The translations under genes were made by a program, and so were the position numbers. Source: Kingdonia uniflora (Eukaryota > Streptophyta > Magnoliopsida > Ranunculales > Circaeasteraceae). From it: a stretch of 64,000 nt of DNA. Positions 5,425 to 33,929 of this stretch are shown piece after piece (position 1 is the stretch's first letter; each line of letters starts with the position of its first letter). The notes below the pieces were generated by a model. It saw only the letters and a program-made list of their open reading frames with translations. It was not told the DNA's origin and did no database searches. The stretch is from NCBI GenBank assembly GCA_014058105.1, contig JACGCM010002205.1, positions 4,836,001-4,900,000 on the forward strand. Direction: 5' to 3'.

Positions 5425-5639
5425 GAAGAATGGGATAAAAAAATCAAATGAGTGGGGTCTGGTAAAGAATTGATGTGGGAACCTGTGTAACGGAATAAAG
5501 ACTTATCGACAAAGACAATTTCAGAATAATTGATATCCCAAACCAGAACTGCAACGATGTGTCATATTTCATTACAGCCTCCCTAATGGAAAGTTGTAAA
5601 TTCGACACTGACTGGTATAGAACATTTGAGACAACACAA

Positions 5640-7260: not shown

Positions 7261-8793
7261 TTGCATCTCTCCATCTACCTATTCTTGACTAGGTGGGCAT
7301 ATCCAAGGAATGGATATCGACTCGTACCAGGTAGGGTAAGCTTCAGTCACAATTGGACCGTCTCTCTTTTTGTGTAAACCTTTTTCATTTTTTTTCAACA
7401 TATTTTTCACCCATTTCCCGTTCGAGAATTTGTCAGTCCATTCATAGGTTACCTTATAATGTGTATTCTCGATTTCTCCTCAAAGTACTACGGGTGTGAA
7501 AGGTGAGTTCTTCGGAACACCTTGGATCCTCCCTAGATGACGAGTGCAATGGCCTAGCAAGTATGGGACAACGTAGTCAGGGCATTGCAACAATCCAGTA
7601 AACCAAGATATTGAAGCGACATCAGCACCCTTTTCTCTATTATCATCATAGGGATTAAAAACAACCTGTATATTGGATAATATAATAAGATAGTTGTGGA
7701 AATATACAAGTAATATTAAATAGATTTAAGATTCCATTACTTACATCATCGACTAAGTAGTCATCGAGGGCTTGACGAATCTCTTGAAGCATTTCAGTGT
7801 GAAACCTAACATTTTCTTTGGTCTCCACTTGGTACAGTACTCTTGGCTATCATGTGGGCCAGGTTCTGGAACATAAGGAAATTTGGGGAAATGGGCATAA
7901 ATCCACGATTGTTCATCAGGACAAGAAAATAAAAATTAGTCTCAATATGATATGTTTGGAAAGCTTATAAAATAACAAAAAGTGGTTCAGATTTGGGATA
8001 CCTCCAAAAAAGTAGTAAACGCAACGAATTGTTTCCCTTCATACGAACATATCGAGCTAATCTCGCGATACAAGTATGCAAGAGTAGAAGTTCCCCAGGC
8101 ATATCTCCCCGCTTTCTCCAAAGATTCGAACAACTCTAGGTATTTTAGAGATATGTAGGCCCCAGTCTTCTTCGGAAAAAGCAAACTTCCAACCAGATAG
8201 AGAAGATAAGCCTTTAATGTACCAGGCAGTGACTTCTCTGGGTTAACGATTATTTTCTTCCCCTTTCCCTTTTTAGTAGAGGAATCCTCTTCCTCGACAA
8301 CCTTACCCTTCCCTTTTTTGTCCTTTTTTACCACCTTCTCAACTTTCTTCCTAAAGAACTCTTGGAGCCATGAAATTTTGATTGTCGCAACTTACACAGT
8401 AGACATAGAAACAATGAACTATTTTTTAGTTAAACCAATCAGATCACAGAAGACCTTCATGGCAGAATCTGGCTTGCCTATCCCCTGTAGACACTTGCCC
8501 TTCACTGCCAGCCCAACAAGCTTCACCACATCCTCTAATGAGATAGTCATCTCCCATTTACTAAAATGAAAGCTGCAGGTCTCGCGGTGCCAGTGCTCAA
8601 TAAAGGCGGTGATTAACGATCTATTGTAGTGATCATATACAATCTCACCCAGACGCCACAAACCTGCAGCCATCACCTGGTATCTGACATCTTCGTTCTC
8701 TAGGTGCAAATTCCACTTGATTGGGTGGTGGTGACATTTCAGTAAACCCAACTCAGGCTGACAAATTTTAAGACAGTACAAAATGTAAACCAC
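7260..8793 (-). pseudogene. Plant mobile domain (PMD) of element A
   Basis: Segment 8,793-8,419 reads LWRLGEIVYDHYNRSLITAF, then WHRETCSFHFSKWEMTISLE and DVVKLVGLAVKGKCLQG. This is the PMD hallmark (a Glu-Thr plus FHF..WEMT..LEDV..L.GL pattern). Segment 8,334-7,987 has a basic linker, then LKAYLLYLVGSLLFPKKTG and YAWGTSTLAYLYREI, matching the second PMD block. Segments at 7,930-7,745 (YAHFPKFPYVPEPG) and 7,670-7,400 (VVFNPYDDN, then PYLLGHCTRHLGRIQGVPKN) are the C-terminal blocks seen in MULE-borne PMD proteins. The order is preserved, but stops are present and exon joins are uncertain. Confidence 0.8.
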
Positions 8794-9142
8794 CTTAATA
8801 ACAAAATAGAATATTCCAAAATAACAGTAACGACAAGCATGAATTCGACACAGTCATAACAGAATGATTTATATTCCGTTACACAAGTAACGTAATACGA
8901 AATTCCGAAACTACATATTCGAAAAATACAAAATTCGCAAGTCAGACACAGTTGCTTATACATATGGGAAAAAACCCTACAAAATGTAATTCAACAAAGC
9001 CGATACTTACCAGCCCGTCGATAATATGTTTACCACGATGTTCCTTCTAATGGATGAGCACACTCCAGTCTAGAGGGTAAACACCACTCTTCGCCGCCGC
9101 GTGAGGGTTCGGAAGAGGGCCTCCAACCTCTGTAGGGGAATC

Positions 9143-13200: not shown

Positions 13201-13468
13201 GGTGGTGTTGCTTTTAAGTTACCAACTGCTGAATTTTTTTTGTTGAAATTTTTTTTAGTACTTAAAAGAAGCAAAACAAACACCACCTTAGTTCATCGAG
13301 GGAGATGGATAGGTTTAAGTGTAATTTGATTCGGCCATGAACATTGATCTTATAGGCAACGGAAGGCGCGTCGATATAGTTACTGGTAGCGTCGAAGGCG
13401 CGTCGGCATTGTTACCGTGGCGAGCCACGGGTAGTGCTAGTATATATATATAGGGAAAGGATTTAGAG

Positions 13469-13632
13469 ACACTCAAGTCTCAAACACTCAAGTCTCACTC
13501 AATCACAACAACTCATCTAATAGAGATGAGTGGTTTTCAAAATTTGATGATTTCCTATAAGGGAAATGAGGTAGAAAAATACTAGGTCCTACCTGCCCCA
13601 CTCTCTCTAGCTGGCAGACATTTTCCTCTCTC
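13469..13632 (+). repeat. Left terminal inverted repeat of element B
   Basis: About 160 bp pair with 27,250-27,411 in reverse complement. Shared blocks include CACTCAAGTCTCAAACACTC, ACTCATCTAATAGAGATGAG (itself containing an inverted repeat around TAGA), ATTTCCTATAA and GCCCCACTCTCTCTAGCTGG. A (GTCTCT) microsatellite follows near 13,729-13,752. Confidence 0.9.
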
Positions 13633-14054
13633 ACTCTCCAAAATTTTAAATTCGATCAAAAATTTAAAATTGGAGCAACCCATCACTCAAGTCTCTCTCT
13701 TTCTTTTATATTACTTTTTTTTCTCTCTCTGTCTCTGTCTCTGTCTCTGTCTCATATTACACACTCTTGCTTGTTATTTTTGCCATTAGAGGTGAAATTT
13801 CAGTCTCAAAAGGGAAGCAATTCTGCCATAAGAGGTAAAATTGATTTCTCCAAAGAACTCTGACACCCTTGCTGACAGTACACTTCCCCGACAAGTACTT
13901 TATGACACTTACTCGACAATAGTACACTTTAATGTTATGAAATTTGTTAGAATAATGTAATCTCCTGTGCAATTTCTCTTTGATTGATTACCTGCAGGTG
14001 GGTCCCATGAGAATTTGATAATTTAGTAGCATAACACTGAACTGAGACTAAATA

Positions 14055-14276
14055 ATTGTCGGATTCGACAATATCAGTAGTGCGATCCTCACATACACTA
14101 TTATATTTGTCGAATTTGACAATATTATATATGACTGTTGGAGACACACTAGCTGAATTGTCGAACTCGACAATATTACATGTGAATGTTTAAGGCATAG
14201 TAACTAAATTATCAAACTCGACAATATTACATATGAATGTTTGAGGCACGATAACTAAATTGTCGAACTAAACAAT
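14055..14276. repeat. Palindrome cluster 1 (five units, 51-bp period)
   Basis: Five copies of an 18-bp palindrome close to ATTGTCGAATTCGACAAT begin at 14,055, 14,106, 14,157, 14,208 and 14,259: exactly 51 bp apart. The intervening sequence is partly conserved between units 3-5 (for example tgaatgttt, aggca, taactaaa), so the array grew by tandem duplication. It lies between the left TIR and the 100-codon ORF. Two half-like sites (ccgacaa, ctcgacaat) lie further left at about 13,888 and 13,913. Confidence 0.9.
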
Positions 14277-14299
14277 ATTACTGTGCAGAGTGAACGGAG

Positions 14300-14602
14300 A
14301 TGGTGAAGACGAGGTCTCAGAGTCGTCGGGAGGCTGCTTCTCGACGTATTAAGCAATTGTATGGCGAACTGGTATTGCGTTATTTTGGTTCGAATAATTT
14401 GAACGGTCCACCATTACCGCTGCATGAGGCGAGCTACGAAGGAATGTGCGAGGCTGAGGCAATATTGTGGAGGGAGGATATCCATTTGCATTGTCAGTTA
14501 CAGTCGGTCATCATGCATCTAATGGCGCGGACCGCAGCTCTTGTTGCCCGGGCCAGGGAACTGGTTAAGAAGGAAGGCTCTAGTTCTGTCGGTGTAGTTT
14601 AG
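14300..14602 (+). CDS. Intact 100-codon ORF of element B, basic N-terminus, unknown family
   Basis: The ORF starts ATGGTGAAGACG at 14,300 and is uninterrupted to TAG. Residues 1-25 are strongly basic (MVKTRSQSRREAASRRIKQL); the remainder looks largely helical, with Leu/Met/Ala-rich segments (CQLQSVIMHLMARTAALVAR). I do not recognise a family. It lies only 24 bp after the last palindrome of the left cluster and upstream of the FAR1 remnant on the same strand, so it could be a separate small element protein or an upstream exon. The surrounding genes of the element are broken while this one is open, which is notable but could be chance for 100 codons. Confidence 0.45.
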   Translation: MVKTRSQSRREAASRRIKQLYGELVLRYFGSNNLNGPPLPLHEASYEGMCEAEAILWREDIHLHCQLQSVIMHLMARTAALVARARELVKKEGSSSVGVV

Positions 14603-14890
14603 GATTTGTTGTTTAGGTATTCTGGTTGTAATGTTGTTAGAAGGTACATGTAATGAAGTAGTTGTAGTATTCACCAAGTGACGAATAAATTTTGAATGGT
14701 ACAACGAGTTTTTGTGTGTGATTGTTTACATTTTGTATTCTGTCTTTTGTAGTATGTGATGTAATGAAGAATTATGAAATTAACATGCGTTGGACTTGAA
14801 TTGTGTTTGGTTTGTGATATTTTATTCAATTACTTTACTTACAACTCACAATCGTTTCTTTTATGTGTGAACTTCTCAGTCAGATCGACA

Positions 14891-15493
14891 ATGGAAGACT
14901 CCGTCGATAAAAATTGGTCAAAAGTTATTGGTGAGGAGTCCTTAGAAAGGTGTGAAAATGAACGTATTGTAGACCCATTTTTTGCGGAAGCCCCATACGA
15001 GGGTCAACATTTTGATACTATAGAGGATGCACATCTGTGGTATGAATGATATGGAAGAGGGTAGGGTTTCTCTATCAGGATACACAATTCTACTAAGCGT
15101 CCGAGATCAGATGATATAGACAGATCCCACTTTTATTCTATGAGTAATGGCTTTTCAAAGAAAAACCTTGGGAATCCAGAGAGTAGTGACGTAATTAGTA
15201 ACAAAAGATCATCTGATAAGTGTGGGTGTAAAGCAACAATGAACATAAATTGGAATACCAAAATAGGCAAATATGTAGTCATAAGATTCACAGATATCCA
15301 TAACCATAAACTCGTATCTCTACGGAATCAGCATCGGATGAAGGTTAACAGATTCATTCCTGAAGCAGCAAAAAACCTTACAGCGGTATTTGAGCTCCAC
15401 AATATTCCGGCCAACAAGGTCCTGGCATTATTCCCAGATAGAACCTTTAGCATACGGGATTGTTACAACCACAATGCCAAAATAAATAACGAC
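14891..15493 (+). pseudogene. FAR1-type DNA-binding domain, remnant of MULE transposase (element B)
   Basis: From ATG at 14,891 one reading frame runs to 15,493, broken only by TGA at about 15,047 and TAG at about 15,062. It reads FDTIEDAHLWYE, then GFSIRIHNSTKR, then CGCKATMNINWNTKIGKYVV and DIHNHKLVS. This is the order and spacing of the FAR1/FHY3 zinc-binding DNA-binding domain (the Cys and His-x-His parts are visible). It continues with a helical segment (about 15,345-15,470), then stops. The MULE catalytic domain and SWIM finger expected downstream are absent: by 15,780 the sequence is non-coding. It aligns by context with the transposase of element A, which has lost the opposite half. 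Confidence 0.8.
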
Positions 15494-15496
15494 TAG

Positions 15497-16023
15497 TCAG
15501 AGGAGATGCACAAACCGCGCTGGAGTACTCGGCAACCATGGCAAACGGACATGCCCACTTCTCAAAATGATGATAGCAGAATTAAGCAAGTATATATTCG
15601 ACACTATGCATAAACGGCATATTCTCCGTGATTTCTTTATAATGTGTTCCATTATATATTTATGCCATATTTTCAATAATGAGTTCCATGTAGGAGACAA
15701 CAATAATGAGGAATCTGTTCAGCCGTTGCACTCAAATTCTGACAACCACAACATCTAGGAAAACAGAAGGTGTTCATATGCATTGACTAATAAATATGTA
15801 TTTGATTATTATTGAGAGATTAGTGTGTTGATTCAATATTATATTTGCTTTGTAATTGGAATTTAGGACAATAGCAATGTCGTATTTCACGGATAAAATA
15901 GCAATGAATTATTTACAGTTTGGGGATTATGTTGCTTTATGCACTCTCTATAAATTTGTATATTGTCGAAAATACTATATTAAATTGTCGGGTTATGTAA
16001 TAGATCTTCTATAATTTAACTAA
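15497..16023. other. Non-coding stretch where the transposase core should be
   Basis: After the FAR1 remnant only scraps of possible coding sequence remain (to about 15,757), then AT-rich DNA. No MULE catalytic domain is recognisable on either strand, which implies a deletion within element B. Confidence 0.5.
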
Positions 16024-16198
16024 ATTGTCGATTTCGACAATATTATATACCCTTAACTCTAATTATACTTTATAATATTGTCGGGTTCGACAATATTACA
16101 AATGGATAATTCGAAATACATTACCAAAATTGTCGAAATAGACAATATTATACATTGCAAATAACCATATGCACTAAAGTATTGTCGAAATTGACAAT
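16024..16198. repeat. Palindrome cluster 2 (four units)
   Basis: Copies of the ATTGTCGA..TCGACAAT palindrome begin at 16,024, 16,077, 16,129 and 16,181, with spacing of 53, 52 and 52 bp; a half copy (tattgtcg) occurs at about 15,961. The cluster lies in the spacer between the convergent FAR1 remnant and OTU-like gene. Confidence 0.9.
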
Positions 16199-16473
16199 AT
16201 TTCATTTTTTAGATCCATGTGCACTGTTAAAATATTATTCAGAGACAATATGTATATTTTGAAGAGGGGAGAGTCAGAAATGAGATTCAGATGACATAAC
16301 AGAAATGTATATACTACAAAAATAAATCAACAATGGAGTGTTATACTAAAAATTATATACTGTGATAAATATTGAACTAAATGAACTGTCATATACAAAA
16401 AGGGAAAAAATTATATATTGTGATAAAGATTGAGTTAACATAACTGTGATATACAAAGATTTGGTCGACAACC
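16199..16473. other. Spacer downstream of the OTU-like ORF
   Basis: AT-rich DNA between palindrome cluster 2 and the stop of the OTU-like ORF, with a loosely repeated motif (gtgataaa.attga near 16,362 and 16,418). No gene is visible. Confidence 0.4.
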
Positions 16474-17388
16474 CTATTTGATTGTCGACAAACCAACAAC
16501 AACCATGTCATTAACTTTATACCCCTGATACTTGTGCTCTCTAAGTAATGCCTTGAAGTTCCTTACCCTCACATCAAAATACCTAGTCAGTTGTTCTCTC
16601 ATAAAACCCAAAGGAATTTCCAGATTTACATGACTGTAGAAAATAGTATAAATTTGAGGTATTGGTGCATCGAACCTTGGAAACAAGCGAACGAAATGGT
16701 TGTCCGCCCCCAAACAAGACCACCAATACTTACTAGTATCCATAACTAGGTTTTGGAACCTCTCCTTATTTGAAGTAGTATTTCTTTTACGTGCCCAAAA
16801 GAGGGGTAATAATGTATATGCTTCAGTATGGCTAATGAAGACTACAACCTTCTCATAGTAAGTGGATAGTAAATGTACCATATGCCTATACTCCACATGT
16901 TGATGACCATAAGAACATGCATGCAACAAAATTTGATACGCGTTCCCACCGTCTGGAATAAATTGTATACCCAATGTTTGGCTGAAGATACTCTTCCAGA
17001 ATGCGGGGTCCTTGCAGAGAAAGGTCTTCAATGATTTCATTACATCTGGCAATCTATGTTGGCTCTGGTACTGAATCACGACGGTAACCCTAAAACAAGA
17101 ATTGCTATCACTGATTTCGACACCACAAACATCAACAAGATACTTCGTCCATGGTTGAAATAAAAGTTCTTGCATCTTTTTTTTCTTAGCCATTTTCTCC
17201 CTCCTAGCAATGACAACATTTTCAAGGGTTACAGCCGTGGAAACCAAGTTTTCTTGATAATCTCCCTTGGGTCCTTGTTGTGTTATTGTAAAGAATCTTT
17301 CGTTCTGCTCAAAAATTTCTTCAAAAATTGGGTCCCCCATGTCTCTCATCCCTTCACTTGCGAGTGCCTTCTTCAATGTTTGACGCAA
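16474..17388 (-). CDS. OTU-like domain ORF of element B (304 codons), catalytic Cys replaced
   Basis: This is the longest open frame in the window. Residues 1-100 are charged and helical, including the basic run MAKKKKMQELL. The OTU-like domain follows. The active-site block reads FIPDGGNAYQILLHACSYGH, with Ala where DGNC has the catalytic Cys. The block YRHMVHLLSTYYEKVVVFIS is followed by AYTLLPLFW, the usual pre-terminal strands. ADNHFVRLFPRFDAPIP keeps the NHFV histidine typical of MULE-borne OTU domains. About 60 residues follow. The loss of Cys with retention of His argues for a non-catalytic, perhaps ubiquitin-binding role if expressed, or simple decay. Being last exon(s) of the PMD gene is inferred from element A. 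Confidence 0.6.
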   Translation of the reverse strand: MRQTLKKALASEGMRDMGDPIFEEIFEQNERFFTITQQGPKGDYQENLVSTAVTLENVVIARREKMAKKKKMQELLFQPWTKYLVDVCGVEISDSNSCFRVTVVIQYQSQHRLPDVMKSLKTFLCKDPAFWKSIFSQTLGIQFIPDGGNAYQILLHACSYGHQHVEYRHMVHLLSTYYEKVVVFISHTEAYTLLPLFWARKRNTTSNKERFQNLVMDTSKYWWSCLGADNHFVRLFPRFDAPIPQIYTIFYSHVNLEIPLGFMREQLTRYFDVRVRNFKALLREHKYQGYKVNDMVVVGLSTIK

Positions 17389-17439
17389 ACCTCCTACAAT
17401 AAGTCCTCATATTAGAACAGACAGTAATATTAGAACAAT

Positions 17440-17910
17440 ATTATCGATTTCGACAATATTATATATCCATAATTCCAATTACAGTGTCATAATTGTCGAA
17501 CTTGACAATAATATATTGTACAAGTGTACATATATATTACCAATATTGTCAATTTCGACAATATGCAGTTGGTAATCGTCGAATTCGACAATAATGACTT
17601 CAAACCATGCATTAAATAGAACAATCTCAAATAGGTACAAGAGTTAGGAATATGTCATACCCATTCACTGTTATCAATTTCCAAAGTCTTCTTCCTCTCT
17701 TCAGAATTAACTAGTTTGTTATGCAGAAACAAAAATCCAACATTAGGATAATGATATTTGGTACAAGTACATGTACATGTACATTATCTATATTGTCGAG
17801 TTCGACAATATTTTGCATGTACAACTCCAAATACAATTCTTAATTGTCGAATTCGACAATATTCGATTTTAGTAACATGATTTTGAAGCCATATTGTCGA
17901 ATTCGATAAT
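17440..17910. repeat. Palindrome cluster 3 (seven units, two sub-arrays)
   Basis: Palindromes begin at 17,440, 17,492, 17,545 and 17,575, and then at 17,792, 17,843 and 17,893. Spacing is 52, 53, 30 and then 51, 50 bp. The copy at 17,843 is the perfect form ATTGTCGAATTCGACAAT. They lie in introns just upstream of the OTU-like ORF, and the two sub-arrays accompany two duplicated coiled-coil exons. Confidence 0.9.
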
Positions 17911-18045
17911 TATCACTTGGTTAATGCATTACACAGAGTAATCTCAAATGGGTACAAGAGTTAGGAATATGACATACCCATTCACTGTTATTTGCTTCTA
18001 AAGACTTCATCCTCTCTTCAGCATTAACCAACTTCTGTTGCTGAA
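17655..18045 (-). other. Duplicated coiled-coil exon pair (element B)
   Basis: Two minus-strand exon-like segments are near copies. At 18,045-17,977 one reads KLVNAEERMKSLEANNSEW followed by a GTATGTC donor; at 17,722-17,660 the other reads KLVNSEERKKTLEIDNSEW followed by GTATGAC. The flanking intron sequence (gggtacaagagttaggaatatg) is duplicated too, giving a period of about 309 bp. This is a tandem exon duplication that lengthens the coiled coil by one exon in phase. Confidence 0.75.
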
Positions 18046-19890
18046 AAAATATCCAACATTAGAATAAACAGTAAAATCAACATTCTATATAATTAAGAAG
18101 GATGAGGGGGGGAGTTTACGAGATGGTTAGTTTCCTCCGTATATCTCGCTGCTTCTTTCTTATACTTGGATGTCCAGTTTATTATCTGTTCAAAATACAT
18201 AAAGGAGATGATCTATATAACTCCAGTTCATTTAAATGTGTTTTTGGGTACTACATTTGATTTTGAGCAAGGGTTAACCGATATTGAACATAGATTCCAA
18301 AATGAATACTACATCTGATTTTAGATAATCAAACACAAACTCCAATCCACTAACTAAGAAATTTGTACACAAAATTAAACTTAAATTCAATATTATCAAA
18401 CACAAACTCTAATTCACTAACTAAAAAATTCGTACCCAAAATTAAACTTAAATTCACTATTATCAACAGACAAACTCCAATTTACTAACTACAATTAATT
18501 TCATTCATTTCAAATGACTTACAAAATCTTCTTTCATAATCAACTTCTTCTTATCATCCTCATGTGCAGCCAATAAGTCTTCATACTTCTTTGCAAGGGT
18601 TATGTCTGGCACAGGCTGATGTGATTGTAGCACAGCAAGCTGTTTAAAACATGAGCACAAGAACAATGTTACCAGACTTACAAATAAGGGATAACTAATT
18701 TAACCACAAACTAATAGTAAATTTTGGTAAACTCACAGGTGTAGCTGGAAGAAGTTACAAGTCTATCTGATCCATCAAAAATGCATTGACCATTTTTAAT
18801 GACTCGATCTATTTACACTATACACATTGGGGACAAAATAATCACGTTAGATGCAAGAATGATTAATGGAAGACTATAAGTAATTAGGGGTTAGAGACAC
18901 TCAACACTATTACCTTTTTATTAAACTCATTACCTTTTTATTCAACTCAACAGATAAGCTTAATTACAGTCTTCAAGGCCAGATTTTTACCTTAGCTTGC
19001 CTCCAAACTTGTATTTTTTCTTCCAATTTTTTGTACTTTAATATCTACAAACATAAATTTGACAACAAAAATTAGGATTTTGACAAAAATAAACAATAGA
19101 TGCGATAATGACATATGCCTAAGACCTTACCTTCGCATCTAACTACCTTGGCAGATCTGCAAACTCTAGTGCACATTACTAGTTAACTGCACGCTTTAGT
19201 TCAATCTCCTCCTTCATTTGTTAAATGGTTTCTTTCAGCAAATCACATTCACTTGTCTAAGGTTAAATTGACAAGAAACATTTAGATTACTTTCTATGTT
19301 TTTATCGATCTCGACAATAATACATATAGATGATTTCAGAAATCACTGAAAAAATTATCGAATTCGATAATTTACATGTTTCCACCTTCACATACACTGT
19401 AATAATTATCGAACTCGACAATTACTTATACTAATAACTATACATAAAAACTAATATTATGCACAACTAAAGATAGGTATAACTGATCTTCTCTTTGAGA
19501 CACTCTCTTAGGTTTATATTGGCTTCAGACTCATTTTCTTTATCTTCCTTGAGCTTCTGAAGCTGATCATTTACTACTTTGATTTACTGGCCATTTAGGT
19601 TTATATTTGGAAACTGACTAACATACTCATGATGCTACAGAAGTGGTAATTCAAGTGAACAAAATATTAGGGACTAAAAAGTTTGAAGTGAATATAATAT
19701 AAGGGAAGTGAGATAATAATAGTCTTAACATGTACTAACCGATGCATCATATTATTCAGCAATATCTTCAGATTAGTGTTCAGGGGTGTCACCATGCTCA
19801 TTGATACTGGCAGGTTTCCTTTGATGAATTCTAACATCATCATCTGTAGCCAGGTCAACAGTAATGGGACAGATCGTAGTCTACGAGACA
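18046..19890 (-). other. Further coiled-coil exons and introns (element B)
   Basis: Short Lys/Glu/Gln-rich exon-like segments continue. They lie near 18,190-18,120 (WTSKYKKEAARYTEETNHL), 18,640-18,530 (LAKKYEDLLAAHEDDKKKL), about 19,045-18,990 (KYKKLEEKIQVWRQAK) and 19,570-19,500 (KLKEDKENESEANINLRECL). They are separated by AT-rich introns with direct repeats (aaactccaattcactaacta variants at 18,330-18,490). Exon ends were not all determined. Confidence 0.5.
19301..19422. repeat. Palindrome cluster 4 (three units)
   Basis: Palindromes start at about 19,302, 19,354 (ATTATCGAATTCGATAAT, perfect inverted form with TA in place of GC) and 19,405, at 51-52 bp spacing, in an intron of the coiled-coil part. 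Confidence 0.85.
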
Positions 19891-20321
19891 GAGGCAAACC
19901 ACTCTAAGTATGCCTCTGTACATACTAGAGGTCCCTCTCGTACCCTCCGCCCCCTGTCAACCTTCTTTAAAACGAATACCTTCTACTTTTCGCTAGAGAA
20001 GCAATCAACCCACTCATATTTAGGGCTAAATTTCCTCCGCTCTTTTACATTCCATAGGTTGGAAACCTCTGTCAACAGTCATTTTGTGGGGATGCCTTGT
20101 TCCCGATTGAACTGCCGCATAACCCTATTTGAGTAGTAGGGCTGAACATGATCTGGACTTGCTAATACACTATATAAAAGGTGACCTCCTTGAATGCATG
20201 TGCGGAATCCCTTTTATCTTTGTATGGGTCCCATACAACCTACATGAAAAATAAATCAAATGTATTATGCACCATTAAGTTGACTAATTTTTTCCAGTAG
20301 GCTTGAGAAGGATTTAGCAAC

Positions 20322-20566
20322 ATTGTCGAATTCAACAATATTACAGTGGACTGGAAGTTATTGAGAACCTGTATTATCAATTTTGACAATTTATCATGTT
20401 CATTTCGATAATGTTGTTTATTCACAACTAAAAGAAATTGAATAATTGTTGAATTCGACAATATTATCTAGTACAATAGTAGATGTACGTAGTTAATATT
20501 GTCGAATTTGATAATTATTCAATTTACTTTAGTTGTGAATATACAACATTGTCAAAATCGACAATT
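20322..20566. repeat. Palindrome cluster 5 (five units)
   Basis: Copies start at 20,322, 20,373, 20,445, 20,498 and 20,548, with a half-site at about 20,403. Spacing is 51, 72, 53 and 50 bp. They lie in the intron between the PMD C-terminal blocks. Confidence 0.85.
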
Positions 20567-20639
20567 TTGAAGCAGTGTAATCTGCTAACTCCATGTACAA
20601 TATGATACAGTGTAGCAGGGTAATGAACTTACATCCTCC

Positions 20640-21410
20640 AGTTTGTAGTTGTCCAATGCCCCCATAAACTTGAGTAAAGCTATACCACTGTATCTATCCG
20701 TAACAGATACGTCCCATTTCTAGCAAGTACAGTGCTCGTATGTGTCAGAGTCCATCTTCTTGAGGATCCTAACAAGCTTTGGGAAATGTACAAATATCAA
20801 CGACTACATGTATATAGATAAACAAAATAAAATTAGTAGAGGTTGAAGCCATATGTAAAAAGCAGATACATAAATGAGTTTGGAATCACGTCGAGTAGTG
20901 TGGTACAGCATACAAATTGCCTCCCATCATCTCGAGATGCTGCACCCAGATTGTAATACATATGGGCTAGAACTGCTGATCCCCATGACCACTTCTTTGT
21001 CACCTTATCCTTGACAAACAAGTAAAGGTAGCGTGCGCTGACATCTATTCCCTTTTTTGTGGGGAATAGAAAGGACCCAAGGACATACAGCATATAAGCA
21101 CGAGCAACATACCTCGTTGTTAACCCCTTCTTCTTCTTGGCAGCTGCAGCGGTACCGTCACTGAGAACCTTCTCCAACTTGTATACATAATGTTTTTTTT
21201 AGTTTCCTCAGTGACAATGAATTCCCAGTACCCCCAGCTTTCAAAGACTTGAATGTATTTAAATCCTGTAGGAGGTTGTTCTCGAAAATCTCCAGAATTA
21301 CAGGAAATCCCTAGGTACCACCAATGACCGTGACATCACCATCTGGAGGCAACCCAACTAACTGCTCCACATCATCCAGAGTTGGAGTCATCTCGCCCCA
21401 TTTGAAGTAC
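20640..21410 (-). pseudogene. Plant mobile domain, blocks 2-3 (element B)
   Basis: Directly left of the inserted element the frame reads YFKWGEMTPTLDDVEQLVGL then PPDGDVTVIGG (21,409-21,320), the second half of the PMD hallmark. The segment 21,177-20,833 continues with ARAYMLYVLGSFLFPTKKG and WSWGSAVLAHMYYNLG, paralleling LKAYLLYLVGSLLFPKKTG of element A. At 20,820-20,640 the block FVHFPKL leads to a TAG stop and a GTAAGT donor. A further block at 20,240-19,890 (VVWDPYKDKRDSA) is frame-disrupted. Confidence 0.8.
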
Positions 21411-21676
21411 TACAACAAATAAGGGTTTTCACGTCACTAAAAAAGTGACGTGAAAGAGAAATAACGTCACTTTTGCAAGCGACGTTGACCAATGCGACTT
21501 GGAAAGTCTGCGGCTTCAACGTCACTTTTACGATGACATAAATACCTATCATAAACGATATTGTTTTCTAACCCATTACACGTGATTGTTGACAAAGACG
21601 TCATCTTTGGAAGTGACTTTAAAACAAATTCAAATCAACAACATCAGTTCCAAAAGTGATGTTGTTGTGTAATATA

Positions 21677-22377
21677 ATTAAAAAAATCCCTCCCATCCCC
21701 ACCCTGCTTTTCATTTTCCTTCACCTCTACTAGCACTAGCAACAAATAGTGCACACATGGTTAAGCTCCTACCTATTGCAAAAGTATAAAAAATACTTGA
21801 AAAAAATAATGCAAACTTGTCATTAGTTTCCTATATAATATTATCATTGTTCTTATGAAGTACAAGTATCAACTTCACTATGTAAACACATCATTCATAA
21901 TAAGACTCATAATCTACAACTGTTCTTGCAACCTAAGATAGTGAAAAAACTTCAAGCAACTAGTGTGGCAGCGAAGCTCAATCCATGCGTACAAAGCCTT
22001 TTTACACTTGCCTTCATCTCTATAGACCCGAAAAATGGCAAAGCTTAGCTCCCAGAGAATGTAAATCTGCAAGAGAAAACTATAATAAGATATCGCATTC
22101 ATAAGTAATTTTCTAAGAAAAATTACACAAGTACAAGTATATTGCAAAGCGAATTTCATCCAATATATACTGAAGCATTATCCTAATAACATTAATATCA
22201 GTATCTACATATATAATAATTACCTTTGATACAAGCAGCTAATAAACAATCACAAATGGGTTTAATCAAAGAAGTGTTACCAGCTTTCATCATTTGGGAA
22301 TTATGAAAATCAAGGTGTAAACAAATGTATGAAGAAGATCTAATGTCCGCAACAACTATAATTAACAAGGTCTGCAA
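21677..22377. other. Unassigned interior of the CACTA-like element
   Basis: AT-rich DNA between the left subterminal repeats and the RNase H fragment. The minus strand holds an 81-codon ORF with hydrophobic stretches (21,914-22,159) that I cannot assign. Probably captured or degenerate sequence. Confidence 0.3.
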
Positions 22378-23085
22378 GTGGCTACAAGAATGTACATGAT
22401 CAAAGCAAAAGTGTCAACACAATCTAATTTTGGTGAACAACTCTCAGTACAAGTGCTACAGATCACAAGGATGGCAGTTAAAGCAAGAATAGACAGGATA
22501 ATTAGATGGAATGCACCATCTCCAGGATGGTTCAAATTAAACTGTGATGGTTCAACCTTAAGCTCAGGCTTATGTGGAGCTGCAGGAATCATAAGAAATT
22601 CTCAAGGGATGGTGGGGTACAGTATAGCATTGGGCAATGGTACTAGCACAGCAGCTGAACCATATGGGCTCCTGCATGGACTCATACTTTGTAAACAACA
22701 CCAATGGTCACCACTAAAATTTGAAATGAACTCTAAAGTCATTATAAACTGGTACAAACAACACAAACTCGGACCTAGCAAGTATGGAGTTGTATGGCAA
22801 CAAATTCTATATTTATGGCAAGAACTGCAAATCAACATTGGTCACACATATAGAGAAGGGAATAGCTCTGCTGATGGTTTTTCCACACTGGGTAGTGCAC
22901 AACAAACACAATTACTCTGAACCATTATATCACTGCAAAGGCAGATTAGAGCCTCTAACTTTCTAGAAAAGTTAGAGATTACAGTTGTTAGACACTAATG
23001 TATTTATTCATTGGGCCAACCCGATTTCCTCCCTTGTATCTTTAGATTGCATGAATAAATAAAACCCCTAGTTGCATAAAAAAAT
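22378..23085 (+). pseudogene. LINE RNase H (RVT_3-type) fragment with 3' tail
   Basis: A 180-codon open frame shows the plant L1-type RNase H: FKLNCDGSTL (first catalytic Asp), GLCGAAGIIRNSQGM, AAEPYGLLHGL (catalytic Glu), KFEMNSKVIINW (the usual Asp of D-S-K is Asn) and YREGNSSADGFS (last Asp). About 165 bp after the stop an A-run (aaaaaaa near 23,080) suggests the 3' end of the retroelement. It is truncated on the left before any reverse transcriptase. The Asp-to-Asn change would probably inactivate the nuclease. It lies on the opposite strand to the captured exons, so it is either a separate LINE insertion or part of the cargo. Confidence 0.75.
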
Positions 23086-23563
23086 AGCAATGTATTGGAT
23101 CTATCGATATTAACCTACTTCAATATCAGCTTACTTCAATATTAGTTGTTTCACTTTTGTATTTTCATTTACATCCATGTATAAACTTTTGTGAATCTTG
23201 TGTTAGTTTCATTATTTTTGCTCTATTAATGAGATGCTCTAAGCATGATATACTAGATTTCAAAACTATAATCTTTTTTGAATTTAGAGACTTGAGTTTT
23301 GACACATTGTGGGAACATAAAATCCGACATGACTGCCACCAAACTCAAGTTTCGAGTCATTGTAGGAGATGGTTTAATATCTTGGAACTCAAGTACGAGA
23401 CCGAAGGAAAAAAAACCACCAATTCCAGGCACTAGCACTGCTAGAGCGATGTTGCCAATATAAAACCAAGAGACCAAGAGAAACTAAATGATGTTACCAA
23501 TAGAATAACCAGAGAAGATTTGACATAAGAGCAAGGCAAAAGGCTGGAAGTAATAGGTTTTAC

Positions 23564-23731
23564 CTCAAAACTAAGAAGAGAAGTAGTAGGAGTGTAATGA
23601 TCCACCGCATGTTTATCCTTGTCAACGAGAAATTTGGCGAAGTTCCACTTGTTGTTGTCCCCAAATAAACTACATTTACTTGACTTCAAGAACTTGTGCA
23701 GTAAAGCCAAATTATCTCCATTAACGTCAAC
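23564..23731 (-). pseudogene. Captured glutathione peroxidase exon
   Basis: A minus-strand exon of exactly 56 codons is bounded by a TTTAG acceptor and a GTAAAA donor and has no stop. It reads [19 protein letters not shown], then [18 protein letters not shown] and [11 protein letters not shown]. This matches the penultimate exon of plant phospholipid-hydroperoxide-type glutathione peroxidases, including the conserved W-N-F-x-K-F-L-V-D core with the catalytic-region Trp. The selenocysteine-equivalent Cys lies in an earlier exon that is not present. Substitutions at usually conserved positions (SSKC for SSKG, LLSFE for PLSIE) suggest decay. Neighbouring DNA (23,441-23,560) may be the captured intron. 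Confidence 0.8.
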
Positions 23732-24448
23732 CTAAAGTCCAAGATTACCATGAAAGAAGACTAAACCAAAAATGCAAAGTAGAGAGTATCTCTAGCGCAT
23801 AATTTTTAGATTAAGATTTATTTTTCTTTGCTTAATTATCACAAGAAACTTATTGAAGAAGACTCTTAAGGTTAATAAAATCCCTAGGTTGTAATATTTT
23901 CCCATTTTCAGTATACAGCCATAGATCTCTGCCTAACCTCAGCTTTACTCCCCAAAAATGGCAATGCTCATTCTATGTTTGGTTATGGTGGGGTTGGGGA
24001 GTAAATATATTATAGCACTTGGTGAGTAGGAGTCTCAAGCAGTAAGTGGAACGCCTAAGGCAGGCGCTACCACTTATAAATGGAACATATAGGCAAGTGC
24101 CAAAAGCTAGAATTACGCTAGGTGTACAGACTCTTAGATAAACTTAACACTTTTGCTGGCCTTTTTCAAAGTGTTACAGGATTGGATAGCTCTATTACTC
24201 AAGATGCTCAATGTAATGCCCATTAGAAGGAATTTGTTCAACAAGATTTACTTTATCAAATGGAGTACTCGGCTTTGAAACGGGTACAAGCAAACTCTAA
24301 AATCTGCCCGTTAGTATTTCAGGGAAACTGATTGTAAGGGAAAGCCAGTATTTCTTGACCTGAACACCACAGCAAACAAAATCAACATATTTCATTAATA
24401 ATCGCATAGCTAATAGAAAATATCAAATCAAGAAAAATAAAGAATTAC

Positions 24449-24812
24449 CATTATCGATGTTTTCTGTTGATGACAACCCATTTACCCGGTAGAAACTATC
24501 CTCATCGGCTTTTGAATCAACTTCTCCTTCAAATGATTCAGGGTCATGTTCCTTTTCGGGCAATAAGTTGTTCTCACCAATCTTGCAACTCTCCCACATC
24601 TCAGCCTCCCCCTAAATTGATTGGCATACATCTTTGGGATTTTCATTTCCACTCTCCGAAGGGAGTTCTGTGTTTCTTGATATCTCATCAACTTGTTGAG
24701 ATGGAAGAATTTCCACTTTGGGTTTCTCCTCTTCTCCTCCATCCCCATTCTCCGCTAAAAATTCTACCACCTTTGGAAGCAAATCATAATCTTTTTCAAC
24801 AATCAATAACTC
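24449..24812 (-). pseudogene. Captured WEB-family-like exon (second piece)
   Basis: The minus-strand reading gives IVEKDYDLLPKVVEFLAENG, then KVEILPSQQVDEISRNTELP and a Glu/Ser-rich tail (MWESCKIGENN, ESFEGEVDSKAD, VNGLSSTENIDN) ending at a GTAATT donor at 24,448. From memory the D-Y-D-L-L-P-K-V-V-E-F segment and acidic tail resemble plant WEB-family (chloroplast-movement type coiled-coil) proteins. The piece is interrupted by a stop near 24,612. It follows, on the same strand and in the right order, the piece at 24,869-25,115. Identification is moderate and based on recall only. Confidence 0.55.
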
Positions 24813-24868
24813 TTATCAAAATTAACAAAATTATAGACCACAAATCACAAATGTTTTATTAAACTTAC

Positions 24869-25115
24869 ATCGGGTGTAGTCGTACTCGTGACCCGGGAGG
24901 ATTTTCGATCAACGGCAAGCTTAAACTCCACCGATCTCGGCGACCGATCAATTGAAAGACGTGAATTTGGCTATGGCGAAGGCGAACTAGGATCTGATTT
25001 AGTTACTCCCCTACTAAATTTACTAACCCTTGAGGTTGGGGTTGCTGGGGCTTTGTTCACACCATTGTTTGATGATTCAGATAAACCAAATCTGCTTAAG
25101 ATCCAAAAATCATAA
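24869..25115 (-). pseudogene. Captured WEB-family-like first exon
   Basis: Reading from about 25,115: RFGLSESSNNGVNKAPATPT, then SRVSKFSRGVTKSDPSSPSP, a stop, then SRLSIDRSPRSVEFKLAVDR and a GTAAGT donor at 24,868. The pattern S-R-L-S-x-D-R-S-P-R-S after P-A-T-P-x-x-R-V-S-K is what I remember at the N-terminus of WEB-family proteins. Upstream, 25,130-25,400 looks like a 5' UTR with a TATA-like box (tatataaaac on minus near 25,407), so promoter and leader may also have been captured. The internal stop shows that no full product is made. Confidence 0.55.
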
Positions 25116-25672
25116 TTACATCAACAAATTGCTATAAATAAACAATGCCACTAAAACCCAATCACACAAATCAACAAAAAATAGATTAAAACTCCAAAAA
25201 GGTAACAACTTTAATGAACCCTATCTTCCCCAATCTAATCTAAATCCAAACCCAGATCAAATTAATATCTTTACATTAGAAACTAATCGTCGGTGATTTC
25301 TCAAGCAATTTGGTACTGTGAGAGCCAACTTAGAGAAATTGAAACCCTATAATTTCAAGTAGAGACTAGAGAGTTAATCTCTGTAGAAAGAAAGAAGCGA
25401 GTTTTATATATAACTAAACTTTTTTAACTCGTATTTTACAAAGACCCAAATTAAGTCACTGGAGGAAAAAGTGGCATAAATATGAGGGGTTCACTAGTAA
25501 AGTCAGTTTTAGAACGATGTTAAATATCTTTAATGTCGTTGGCTGAAAAAATGACGTTATAAGCGGAACAGGTAGGCCAACTTACGGGAATAAAATGTAA
25601 AATAAGATCTATAATGTCATTTTTCAAAAAATTGACGTTATTTAGGTGACGTAAAAGACCATATTTGTTGTA

Positions 25673-26200
25673 ACTATTAGTTTCCGGCTGTAATTGCTCG
25701 ATAAAGGCAGAAATGAGGGCAGAGTTATAATAATTATAGGATATGGCCCCAATCCTATGCAAACCCTTCAACTTTACAAAATCTTGGACCACTTGTGGTT
25801 CCTTTGTAAGGTTCCGCATAGACTGGTGATGGTGAACACGAATGGGAAGCTTCTCCTGAACAATAATAGTGATTACGTCAACAAAATATAACTATCAATA
25901 ATAGGAATAACATAACATAATTAAACAAGGGATTCCATTAAACAATATATTTGCCCTAGCGCGATCGACCTCGCTCTATGGAACCTGAAGCTCCTCAGTA
26001 GGCTTTTATCACTAGGGCCTACATTATCGTTGCTTGTAGCCCCCTCGCCTTTAGAATACCACCCAACAATAGGAATATTCACAACAAAATTAGGGAAAAC
26101 ATTTGGTTGAGCTCCCAAAGCAGCTTTAGTAAACTCAGTCTCAAATTCTAAACCTTGGGGAATATTCACACCTTGGGCAGACTCAGTTGGAGGTAGTGCT
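25673..26200 (-). pseudogene. PMD block 1 and N-terminal exon (element B)
   Basis: At 25,819-25,673 the reading LHRIGAISYNYYNSALISAF then IEQLQPETNS matches the PMD start (compare LWRLGEIVYDHYNRSLITAF of element A) and stops abruptly at the inserted element. Upstream, 26,169-25,921 is an open exon containing IPIVGWYSKGEGATSNDN and a basic FRFHRARSI stretch. Its function is unknown; it corresponds by position to the charged N-terminal part of the element A protein. Confidence 0.75.
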
Positions 26201-26395
26201 TCACTATCACCCTCATTGGCACTGTCAACAGTGTTTAGAGGAACGACTGTGCTTGGGTTAATAGTATTTCTCTTTCTCTCATTCTCTGACCAACTCTCTT
26301 TTTATTCTATTGGAAGTGGTTGGAGACACTTTCTCATTCATTGTGTACCTGTATATAATTTATTACTCAAATGATCAGTATAATTGCACTTGGTA

Positions 26396-26815
26396 ATTAT
26401 CGAATTCGACAATATTATGTAAACATAAGTCTAATTGTAATTGGTAAATTGTCAAATTCGACAATACTCCATTTCAATAACTACAAGTTAAATATAACTA
26501 TTATCGAATTTGACAATTTAGACTTATAAACAAGTATAATAAAAAAGTAAAATGAACCAGGGGAATTCTATAATTGTCGAATTCGACAATATTATAAAAC
26601 CATAACAATAATTATACTGCTAAATTATCGAATTCGACAATCCTAAATGTTAATTACTCAATTTTACTTTAATATTCTCAATTTTGACAATTCTTCAATG
26701 TACTTTGAGTTATTTAGGTCAAATATTTACGAATTCGACAATCCTAGATGTTAATAACTCAAATTTAAAGTATAATTTTAGCAATTTAAGTTAAATATTG
26801 ACGAATTCGACAATA
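26396..26815. repeat. Palindrome cluster 6 (eight units)
   Basis: Units begin at 26,396, 26,448, 26,500, 26,573, 26,624, 26,674, 26,725 and 26,797. Spacing is 52, 52, 73, 51, 50, 51 and 72 bp; the 72-73-bp steps look like a 51-bp step plus a 21-bp insertion. The copy at 26,573 is perfect. The cluster sits between the PMD gene start and the right TIR, mirroring cluster 1 at the other end. Confidence 0.9.
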
Positions 26816-27249
26816 TTAAACAGTTTCAATACCAAATTGCATTACACAAAGGGGTAGACGAAGAATAGATAACAATTTCTAATGATAATGTGATGATTTA
26901 CCTTGAAGTAGATAACAACCTCCACTATCAATTCCCAAGCTCTACTACTCCAAAATGAATAGACAATGTCTTTGAAGGGTTGAATTCAATTCTTTCTCTG
27001 AACTGACAAATGGAAGAACAAAGATCCTCATAAAGAAAAGGACAGTCTTTAATGGCAAGATAGTGAGAGAGAGAGAGAGTGAGGGAAAGAGATACTCAAA
27101 CTGTTCGTGAGAGTAAAAGAGACAGAGTGACAAAGTGAGTGAGTGGAACTGTTCACGAGAGTGATAAAGATGTTTAGAGGGAAATTTGGTTTATTTAGAG
27201 AGAGTGGGAGAGACAATATTAAATGTGAGTGACGGATGGTTTGAAAAGA

Positions 27250-27411
27250 GAGAGGGAAATGTCTTCCAGCTAGAGAGAGTGGGGCAAGTAGGACTCAATA
27301 TTTTTCCACCCCATTTCTTTTATAGGAAATCACCAAATTTTGAGAACCACTCATCTCTATTAGATGAGTGGTTGTGGTTGAGTGAAACTTGAGTGTTTGA
27401 GACTTGAGTGT
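27250..27411 (-). repeat. Right terminal inverted repeat of element B
   Basis: Reverse complement of the left terminal repeat with small substitutions and indels. It is followed directly by gtatatatacc. Internal to it is a GA-rich stretch (27,060-27,240) with GAGAGA repeats, mirrored by the CT-rich stretch inside the left repeat. Confidence 0.9.
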
Positions 27412-27710
27412 GTATATATACCAAGAAAAATGGATCGATACAAACAAGAACAAGAACAATAATAGAAGAACAATCTAACCTATAGTATGACCTTTCGGTC
27501 CCTCTAAGGCACTTAGATACCCTTAGGGGTATGTGTGCAGATTGTGAATACTTAACAAGAACAAGATAAACTAACTTTTATTTATTATGAAATATTTACA
27601 GAGGAATGGCTGACACAAATGATAGAAGAGACATTTACAGAGGAGTTCTAGGGGAGAGAAGATAAACTTGAAAGAAAAAAAAACTTGCTTACAAATGGGC
27701 ACTTAAACCC

Positions 27711-29289: not shown

Positions 29290-30560
29290 TAGAAAATCAG
29301 GAAAAAAGTTCTAATTACCTTTAATATACTCGATGAAGAAATCAAAGGCAGATAATTCAGATTGCCATCTAGCAAATATCTGTTTAGACACAAGATTTTT
29401 TACATCTTTCTGTAAGATGTCTTTAGTAGAACTGCAATCAATACGCAGTAAAAAGGGTTGGTTTAACAAATCATCCTAAAATTTTGAAATGCATTTGACA
29501 ATAGAAAGCATTTCTTTTTTAATTGTATAATAATTCTTCTGAGCAGTTTTCCACTTTCCTGATGTGAAACGAAGTAATTCTTTTTCTTATGAAGAAGGAC
29601 TGCTTTGTTTTAATATACCTCCAAAACCTAAGTCAGATGAATTTGTTTCAACAATATTTCGCATTAAAGATTGACAAGACCTAAATATGGGTGATGTTTA
29701 ACTCTTAATTTGATTCTTTGAACAACTTTGGTGTATTTAGAGGTCCAGGGGGTAGAATTCTTTGTAAGTCTAGTATATAAAATAGCACTATCCTGGGCCA
29801 TGTTTTGATAGTAGTCTGTAATGTAATTGAGACTACCAAGGAATCTTTGTAATTGAGTTTTCTCTTTATTTTCATTTGGAAATTTTGAGGCAAACTCAAT
29901 ACTCATGTTAATAGGAACAATTTGTCCTTTAGTAATGTTATGTTCTAAAAATCTAACTATTAATTGGAATAGTTTTATTTTAGGAGCAGAAACAACCAGA
30001 CCATTTCTACAAATAACATCCTTAAGGATCTTTAGATGTCTAAAGTGTTGATCAATAGAATTAGAAAATAAAAGGATGTTATCAATATAGACAATATAGA
30101 AGTCTGAATAAGGAACGAAAATATCATTCATAATATTCTAAAATTTAGATAGAGCATTTTTTAATCTATAAGGCATGATATTCCATTTATAGTGACCAAA
30201 TGGAAGTGTAAATGCAATTTTATATTTATCTTTCTCGGTAATTTGAATTTGCCAATATAATGATTTTAAGTCAAATTTAGAGAAGATAATCGCATTATAA
30301 AGACGATTTAAAAGGTCTTTTTTATTTGGAATTAGATAACGAATTCATTTAAGGGAGTCGAGAGGTTTATAATTGACAACAAGCCTAGGAACACCTCGTT
30401 CCTCTTCAGTATTCTTGTTAACATTGAAGGTTGTACAACTCTAAAGAGAGTAGCTCTTTCAGATAAAGCTTTCCTAAATCTCCTTTTTACAGAGTTTAAG
30501 ATATTAAAATTTCATCTGGCTAAGCCCAGCCTTAGTAAGAATTTGGGTTTTCTCATCAAA
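29290..30560 (-). pseudogene. Pararetroviral reverse transcriptase and RNase H
   Basis: The best piece, 30,131-29,664, has the catalytic core as YIDNILLFS. The family has Y-I-D-D, so the second Asp is Asn. It is followed by SIDQHFRHLKIL and QLQRFLGSLNYITDYY, typical of caulimovirids. Upstream, YKWNIMPYRLKNALS (about 30,190) is the preceding motif, and palm/finger blocks extend to about 30,560 in broken frames. Downstream, 29,640-29,300 gives RNase H motifs (KELLRFTSGKWKTAQKNYYT and IDCSSTKDILQ). Several frameshifts and the mutated active site make it inactive. Confidence 0.85.
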
Positions 30561-30769
30561 ATCCAGTTTATAGGGTAAGGAAATAACATGTTGCTTTCGT
30601 TCCTAAAAAGTGTTAAGAATATCGCTATAGACCTCAGTAATGAATTGTTTTTCAATTTCATTAATTCTGATCTTCATCTCAGAGGATAGAAGTTTGTGAG
30701 AAATGTCCATGATTTGGAATTCTTCTTTGAGAAAATTCAGATGGTTTTCCTTAAAGCCAAGCATGGTTT

Positions 30770-31135
30770 TTAGTTCATTAATGATCCTAGTTTCAGGATC
30801 TCTAATGAATTTAAAATAATTTCTTGACCTTGAAATTTTAAAAATATCCTTTTTTGATTAATCTTATGTAGGGGCATAAGAAGATTTAGAAATTGGGTAC
30901 CAAGTATGACTTGCTGTTGTAGATTTCGGACTAAAAGAAAGGTAGATGGAATACATGTACCTTTATTGCAAGTAAAAATGTCAGAAAGTTTGTACTGGAT
31001 ATTAATCCTGTTACCACTAGCTAAGGTAAGAGATTGAACTATTTTAAAAGAATACTTGGTAGGAACCAAGACTTCTTGAATACAGTTCAAGTCGGCTCCA
31101 CTATCTACTAGGGTTATGACATTTTTAGTGGTATA
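30770..31135 (-). pseudogene. Pararetroviral aspartic protease
   Basis: The block VITLVDSGADLNCIQE (about 31,126-31,079) holds the retropepsin active site D-S-G-A. It is followed by a beta-rich stretch and LQQQVILGTQFLNLL, equivalent to the family's I-L-G-x-x-F-L strand. The domain is open for 106 codons after the active site, better preserved than its neighbours. Confidence 0.75.
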
Positions 31136-31330
31136 TTCAATTTTTATTATAAGGGTAACTTTGATATACCATTTCTGAGAAGTAATTTTTTGGAGAAGAT
31201 TAAGATAGGGGTTATTTTTCTTCGCAAGGGTTTCATCATTAGATTCACTAGTTTAAATCTTGTGCTTATCCTTTTGATAGAACTGCAGATGATTAATTTT
31301 ATCATCCTGTGCCTGAATAGAGATTTTTAA

Positions 31331-31570
31331 TTATTTAATTTCAGATTTCAATGTATTAATTTCCTTACGAAGGTTCGGGATAGTGATAGGTTTATCACTT
31401 TCCATGCATTTTAGGACATTTTGGAAATTATAGTACCTGTTTGGTACTTCCAGCGGTTCTGGTTCTATTTTAGGCTTCGAGCTATCTTGAATCATCTGTT
31501 GGAGATAAATACTTCCAAATTTAGCTCGCTTATGGGTCAAATTTTTTATCCACAATAGATAAAATCTCAC
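31331..31570 (-). pseudogene. Pararetroviral coiled-coil-like segment
   Basis: An open stretch of 79 codons between the CCHC knuckle and the protease. It ends in a charged Lys/Glu/Leu-rich helix (PNLRKEINTLKSEIK). By position it is a linker of the polyprotein; no enzymatic motif is visible. Confidence 0.4.
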
Positions 31571-31807
31571 TTTGATTATTAACCAGAGTATTAATATTTA
31601 AGCCATTCATTTCAATAATGGTTTTCCAGTAATCCTGAGGATTGGATTCTGAACACGTGTTGCAAGGAGTTCATTCTTTAGAGGAAGAGGAGTCACTTTG
31701 GTTGATTTCATTGACTTCCTCGTTGTTATCAGAAGAACTTTCTTCAGAGTGGTGTTAAGTAATAGTTTACTTAACTAAAGTTTTAGTCCCTCATCCAGTT
31801 GAAGTTC

Positions 31808-33923: not shown

Positions 33924-33929
33924 TGCCTT

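Follow-up and report, generated by a model that had tools for sequence, protein, structure and literature searches.

The 64-kb window analyzed here (64,000 nucleotides of contig JACGCM010002205.1 of Kingdonia uniflora) contains element B, a DNA transposon that resembles a Mutator-like element (MULE) and carries 32 near-palindromic 18-bp sites in its non-coding DNA. Element B has the long terminal inverted repeats (TIRs) characteristic of MULEs (172 nt, 90% complementary) and is flanked by a candidate 9-bp target site duplication, GTATATATA, at 13440-13448 and 27412-27420. The duplication is weak because it lies inside TA-rich DNA and runs into the right TIR arm at its outer edge; TA microsatellites are known targets of some MULEs (PMC4486113). 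On the plus strand, the element encodes a 100-aa open reading frame (ORF) and the remnant of a FAR1-type transposase gene. On the minus strand, it carries a plant mobile domain (PMD) gene, whose many exons run from 26350 down to 16477. The PMD gene is frameshifted and has been split by a later insertion, and this copy of element B is therefore decayed. The nested insertion includes an RVT_3 fragment (reverse-transcriptase-like RNase H) and lacks any palindrome.

The palindromes are confined to element B within the window. A scan of the entire window for the 18-mer ATTGTCGAATTCGACAAT with up to four mismatches returns 32 sites, all of which lie within 14055-26814, and none in the remaining ~50 kb, compared with a chance level of 0.45 sites per 64 kb (mean of 20 first-order Markov control sequences). 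Most sites are close to the consensus, with zero, one, two, three and four mismatches in 2, 12, 13, 2 and 3 sites, respectively. At five mismatches, two matches occur, both outside 14055-26814, versus 3.65 expected. The original prediction of about 30 copies restricted to one transposon is thus borne out in the window. With the motif of the original prediction, GTCGANNTCGAC, at one mismatch, 24 of 26 matches fall inside the element and two fall outside (40104 and 54558), neither with the flanking ATT/AAT. As a control only, non-plant collections were searched for two exact ATTGTCGANNTCGACAAT copies 30-36 bp apart, and none was found in GTDB prokaryote contigs or in viral contigs.

The sites fall into seven clusters (5, 4, 4, 3, 3, 5 and 8 members), one cluster more than had been predicted, and are regularly spaced. 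Among the 25 within-cluster spacings, 21 measure 50-53 bp, three 72-73 bp and one 30 bp. Random placement in the same cluster hulls with the ends fixed yields a mean of 1.26 spacings of 50-53 bp, and none of 20,000 trials reaches 21. The exact 51-bp steps predicted for cluster 1 apply to all five of its sites, and part of this cluster (14107-14281) is also reported by Tandem Repeats Finder (TRF) as a tandem repeat of period 51. The mean resultant length of the helical phase is 0.82-0.87 at every period between 10.0 and 11.0 bp; because one spacing dominates, the data are compatible with five helical turns but cannot fix the helical period. Since the sites are clustered, the effective sample is seven clusters. 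If the element runs from 13449 to 27411, 606 bp separate its left end from the start of the first site, and 597 bp separate the end of the last site from its right end. The array had been predicted to begin at 13888, where half-sites do occur (CGACAA at 13889 and TCGACAA at 13913) but no full palindrome. Additional half-sites (TCGACAA and TTGTCGACAA) are located at 16464-16492, around the extreme end of the PMD reading frame, and exact TTGTCGA half-sites outside the palindromes number six in the element, where the remainder of the window would predict 1.4.

The clusters occupy the non-coding parts of element B in the arrangement foreseen by the original prediction, beside both TIRs (clusters 1 and 7), in the spacer between the genes (cluster 2) and in PMD introns (clusters 3-6). 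No site overlaps the 4903 bp of assigned exon, although exons make up about half of the 9701 bp of the element minus the nested insertion. The exon set comprises most of the tblastn stretches of 61 Kingdonia proteins together with the plus-strand frames 14300-14602 and 14902-15496, and 96 of its base pairs (25577-25672) lie inside the nested insertion. It leaves out 18725-18962, 19257-19334, 19452-19481, 26351-26472, a stretch matched by a single protein (13832-13894) and the PMD gene that lies outside element B (4489-8745). When the doubtful stretches are included, 3 of the 32 sites overlap an alignment, namely the site at 19301 (protein P0043) and those at 26396 and 26448 (P0030 and P0009), and the alignments at these places either match poorly or are the translated palindrome itself.

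The palindrome is conserved to a much greater extent than the DNA between its copies. Across all pairs of the 32 sites, identity averages 84% in the palindrome, 36% in the 32 bp that follow it and 27% in random 32-mers of the element. In 19 of 21 adjacent pairs, the spacers are 16-53% identical while the palindromes are 72-94% identical. Similar spacers (69% and 84%) are found in only two adjacent pairs, both in cluster 1, and the middle of this cluster is the only part of the array that looks like a fresh tandem duplication. Site positions 2, 11, 14, 16, 17 and 18 are invariant in all 32 copies. When the sites are folded on their dyad, the half-site ATTGTCGAA is matched 62, 64, 63, 50, 62, 61, 49, 62 and 47 times per base among 64 half-sites. 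Bases 7 and 9 are lax to a similar degree on the two sides of the dyad (26 and 23 matches, and 24 and 23 matches, of 32), in line with the predicted palindromy with a laxer center. The symmetry of the site is good but not complete.

The substitutions in the half-site CpG suggest how the site has been maintained. Among the 64 half-sites, 15 changes fall on the inner G and only three on the outer C (binomial p 0.0075). Methylated-CpG decay would be expected to strike the two bases equally and so does not by itself account for this difference. We read the imbalance as a trace of past selection on the bases touched by a protein that was nearly symmetric and probably dimeric. Methylated-CpG decay may contribute as well, given that 28 of the 56 substitutions in the sites are C>T or G>A.

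Homologous palindromes are also detected in other copies of the family in Kingdonia. Two gene models, P0030 and P0009, begin inside translated homologous palindromes. A gap-free alignment of 41 residues (78% identity) joins P0030 to window positions 26472-26350, a stretch that takes in the two sites that start at 26448 and 26396; the absence of gaps means that the 52-bp step is preserved in the P0030 copy. One homologous palindrome is kept in P0009. As judged from these translations, the alignments show that homologous palindromes persist in two further copies and no more.

Table 1. Features of element B and of the second PMD gene in the window
Feature	Position	Strand	Remarks
Element B, MULE-like DNA transposon	13449..27411	.	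~13.96 kb including the 4.26-kb nested insertion; ends +/- ~10 bp
Left TIR	13461..13632	+	172 nt, 90% complementary to 27248-27419
Palindrome cluster 1	14055..14276	.	5 sites, exactly 51 bp apart; left TIR to 100-aa ORF
100-aa ORF	14300..14602	+	Basic N-terminus; 3 conserved Kingdonia counterparts, 65-76% identical in the aligned part
FAR1-type transposase gene remnant	14902..15496	+	FAR1 domain; frame broken by stops at 15047 and 15062
Palindrome cluster 2	16024..16198	.	4 sites (53, 52, 52 bp); central spacer separating two convergent gene ends
PMD last exon	16477..17388	-	Family-specific C-terminal region; no Pfam match; tblastn and 61 Kingdonia homologues
Palindrome cluster 3	17440..17592	.	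4 sites (52, 53, 30 bp); intron
Palindrome cluster 4	17792..17910	.	3 sites (51, 50 bp); intron
Palindrome cluster 5	19301..19422	.	3 sites (53, 51 bp); intron; one doubtful tblastn alignment covers site 19301
Palindrome cluster 6	20322..20565	.	5 sites (51, 72, 53, 50 bp); intron
PMD exon region with most of the plant mobile domain	20597..21409	-	tblastn; frameshifted; upstream side cut by nested insertion
Nested insertion	21411..25672	.	Ends TACAACAAATA / TATTTGTTGTA; inverted repeat 32 nt, 81%; splits PMD exon
PMD N-terminal domain part, upstream of nested insertion	25673..25876	-	tblastn, <=77% identity to Kingdonia PMD proteins
PMD first coding exon	25945..26350	-	tblastn; ATG near 26341
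Palindrome cluster 7	26396..26814	.	8 sites (52, 52, 73, 51, 50, 51, 72 bp); right TIR to PMD gene start
Right TIR	27248..27419	-	Pairs with left TIR
Further PMD gene, diverged, not part of element B	7990-8391, within 4489-8853	-	27-49% identity to element B family

The PMD gene of element B belongs to a Kingdonia family with a recognizable plant mobile domain and a family-specific C-terminus. The domain is matched by PF10536 at 20836-21198 (E 2.4e-13; 50.4 bits versus a gathering score of 34.9) and more strongly in the relative P0006 (92.6 bits). The last exon has 61 relatives at E <=1e-3, the best-scoring of which is 87% identical, and all 61 come from Kingdonia uniflora in a search limited in length and by word matching, which may miss relatives in other plants. 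The C-terminal part had been labeled an OTU domain, a label that finds no support here: no OTU family matched at E <=1 when 18 C-terminal proteins of the PMD family were compared with Pfam, and the region gave only two matches among PDB sequences (E 0.89 and 0.96), neither of them an OTU. The AlphaFold model of the region is too poor for fold comparison (predicted local distance difference test score, pLDDT, 52). Hydrophobic 3.5-residue periodicity was assessed in seven PMD-family proteins, and the top window was below the largest of 40 shuffles in six and equal to it in P0010; we therefore claim no coiled coil, and a PMD dimer gains no support from this periodicity. The short exons 17631-17726 and 17930-18055 are alike, both are followed by GGGTATGNCATATTCCTAACTCTTGTACC, and each next intron contains a palindrome cluster. 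They make up a duplicated exon-intron unit, which recalls the tandem repeats in VANC genes (PMC5735166).

The plus-strand genes encode two further candidate proteins. The 100-aa ORF has no Pfam match, and all three of its relatives are from Kingdonia uniflora, in a search with the same limits as that for the last PMD exon. Its protein is predicted to fold into two long helices (pLDDT 64.7), and its profile matches a single PDB sequence without credibility (E 0.28). The FAR1 domain named by the original prediction is present (PF03101, E 6.9e-13 at 15065-15493). Pfam gave no match for frames 14768-15046 and 15486-15755, and no MULE catalytic, SWIM or other transposase domain was detected in the neighboring frames scanned. 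As a binder of the palindromes, the FAR1 protein encoded by this copy is a weak candidate, because FAR1 is the only domain detected and stops break its frame.

Outside element B, the window contains a second PMD gene that bears on the relationship between PMD and DUF1985, a domain of VANC proteins. The 7990-8391 gene matches PMD at E 1.3e-16 and, over the same residues, matches DUF1985 below threshold (20.7 bits versus a cut-off of 35.1; E 4.2e-4); once the lysine-rich part is removed, the DUF1985 match has E values of 1.8e-3 and 4.7e-3. This match hints that PMD and DUF1985 may be distantly related. DUF1985 was not found in eight scanned frames of element B or in 18 C-terminal relatives, and neither DUF1985 nor DUF287 nor Ulp1 is among the matches listed for the protein family of element B, where one of the scans lists 25 of 43 families. 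No publication that mentions both PMD and DUF1985 was found in the literature searched. The second PMD copy (4489-8853) shows no over-represented 9-mer array, and its candidate TIRs are unconvincing (10 pairs of 30-42 nt, 70-77% complementary). Elsewhere in the window, separate minus-strand frames at 29664-33938 match RVT_1, RVP (retroviral-type protease) and DUF7588, and this region resembles an endogenous pararetrovirus or retroelement. Reverse transcriptase fragments (RVT_1) at 44947-45393 and 53852-54295, both on the minus strand, are presumably of the long interspersed nuclear element (LINE) type.

What is the biological function of the palindromic array? We propose, tentatively and at close to an even chance, that the palindromes are the target sites of a dimeric, sequence-specific protein that is encoded by the MULE and acts in element-specific anti-silencing. 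The protein would bind each palindrome as a dimer that reads the nearly dyad-symmetric site, contacting the well-kept outer half-sites TTGTC/GACAA on both sides of a lax center. Because most sites lie about five helical turns apart, bound dimers would all face the same side of the helix, near promoters as well as in intergenic and intronic DNA. The bound protein would keep the non-coding DNA of the element unmethylated and active, as VANC proteins do on VANDAL MULEs. The PMD gene product would be the likeliest binder, followed by the 100-aa basic protein. The proposal builds on what the sequence shows, namely an array that is confined to the element in the window, phased, better conserved than its spacers, non-coding in position and retained as homologous palindromes in two other copies, and on the CpG imbalance; the sub-threshold DUF1985 match of the second PMD gene also speaks for it. 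Protein binding, the dimer, the choice of binder and the anti-silencing role are inferences. The proposal has an experimentally demonstrated parallel in Arabidopsis (PMC5735166), in which VANC21 binds YAGTATTAY motifs and the targets of VANC6 are marked by AGTTGTCC/AGTTGTAC motifs (PMC5735166, PMC10398659). These motifs form arrays, often tandem, in the introns and in the intergenic and terminal non-coding regions of VANDAL MULEs (PMC5735166), so that the placement seen in element B is not foreign to MULEs as had been supposed. VANC causes methylation loss throughout the target VANDAL elements (PMC5735166, PMC10398659), and the suggestion that a PMD captured by a MULE could be an anti-silencing factor has been made in one sentence (PMC5418596).

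Other explanations account for part of the evidence. The sites could bind a transposase or accessory protein for transposition or promoter control, with no role in anti-silencing. Subterminal repeats bound by TNPA of En/Spm or by the Ac transposase are a precedent, clusters 1 and 7 lie near-symmetrically ~0.6 kb from the ends, each between a TIR and a gene start, and the element encodes a FAR1 DNA-binding domain. However, the four PMD-intron clusters hold 15 of the 32 sites and the central spacer holds four; these positions are remote from the ends and not where one would look for synapsis sites, and we regard this explanation as unlikely. If the reader were instead a dimeric transcription factor of the host, the sites would be enhancers for the genes of the element, as their palindromic form near promoters and their enhancer-like positions in introns would allow. 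A host site should be more readily seen elsewhere, yet the other 50 kb, albeit a small sample, contains none at up to four mismatches, which makes a host factor distinctly unlikely.

The array could also be formed without any bound protein. A decayed minisatellite, in which 51-bp tandem units arose by replication slippage or gene conversion and the palindrome is functionless, would explain the two cluster 1 pairs with similar spacers, the TRF array and the slight excess of spacer identity over random (36% versus 27%). The palindrome and spacing are kept while the spacers have mostly been replaced, and the array is therefore no plain minisatellite. Steps of 72-73 and 30 bp and the avoidance of assigned exons also argue against such an origin, which we consider improbable. 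A DNA-structure or chromatin element, such as a cruciform or a nucleosome-phasing signal, would need only the dyad and the near-constant period. It would not require conservation beyond symmetry, which the six invariant positions display, and 51 bp is not a nucleosome period; we find this explanation highly improbable.

Several observations weigh against the proposed anti-silencing system. Evidence for conservation in other copies comes from only two of the 61 gene models, with the sites deduced from amino acid sequence, and a search with the translated arrays recovered P0030 alone, a protein whose first 41 residues belonged to the query. The symmetry of the site is imperfect in that half-site base 4 matches in 21 of 32 left halves and 29 of 32 right halves, and the right flank ATT (A in 22, T in 22 and T in 26 of 32 sites) is kept better than the left flank. 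DUF1985 is unmatched in the PMD exon of element B and in 24 of 25 PMD sequences scanned, with the 7990-8391 gene as the exception. The motifs of VANC21 and VANC6 are short, and those of VANC21 are described as forming arrays of a single orientation and not as palindromes. VANDAL TIRs are degenerate (PMC10398659), in contrast to the long, 90% complementary TIRs of element B. In Arabidopsis, the host PMD proteins MAIN and MAIL1 take part in silencing and do not oppose it (PMC5418596, PMC7156037); a motif named DOWN has been linked with both (PMC7156037).

The array provides a concrete DNA target for the question of what a transposon-borne plant mobile domain does. Should the PMD protein bind the arrays and relieve silencing, element-specific anti-silencing would no longer be limited to VANC proteins of the DUF1985 type, and such a regular array of palindromes could conveniently be used to direct epigenome changes. 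A broader version holds that Kingdonia, an early-branching eudicot of the Ranunculales, harbors a family of PMD-MULEs whose dimeric PMD proteins counteract silencing via palindromes five helical turns apart, with PMD and DUF1985 as distant relatives. This version is doubtful. If it were true, VANC systems would be one branch of a wider and older group of transposon anti-silencing proteins, and the recruitment of PMD proteins into silencing by plant genomes would be partly accounted for.

Element B can be compared with several transposons that carry repeated motifs or a PMD. In En/Spm of the CACTA superfamily, the TNPA motifs are short, non-palindromic and subterminal and are read by a protein of the element; they are similar to the palindromes of element B as a repeated candidate binding motif near both ends. 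The diversified VANC systems of eudicots in Sasaki 2022 (EMBO J) reportedly owe their specificity to motif sequence, density and helical periodicity, and their VANC proteins are said to carry DUF1985, DUF287 or Ulp1. The five-turn spacing of the element B sites would fit such a helical periodicity. As a MULE carrying a PMD, element B also resembles the PMD-C MULEs of grasses and Amborella (Ikeda 2017, PMC5418596). In PMD-C MULEs, the PMD is fused to the transposase, whereas element B encodes it in a separate gene on the opposite strand, and the excerpted description of PMD-C MULEs includes no motif array (PMC5418596).

The closest likeness is to VANC21/VANDAL21 and VANC6/VANDAL6. As in these systems, a short motif is present in many copies in the non-coding regions of element B, is specific to the element within the window and is partly tandem, and coding capacity is not limited to the transposase but includes a further protein (PMC5735166). 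Unlike VANDAL elements, element B uses an 18-bp near-palindrome at a near-constant 51 bp with mostly unrelated spacers, encodes a PMD in place of DUF1985/DUF287 and has TIRs that are neither degenerate nor absent. The pattern thus resembles a VANC system, a likeness that stops short of establishing membership in one. On this comparison, the array of element B is best read as a VANC-like, element-specific control system that would combine a new type of site with a different candidate protein.

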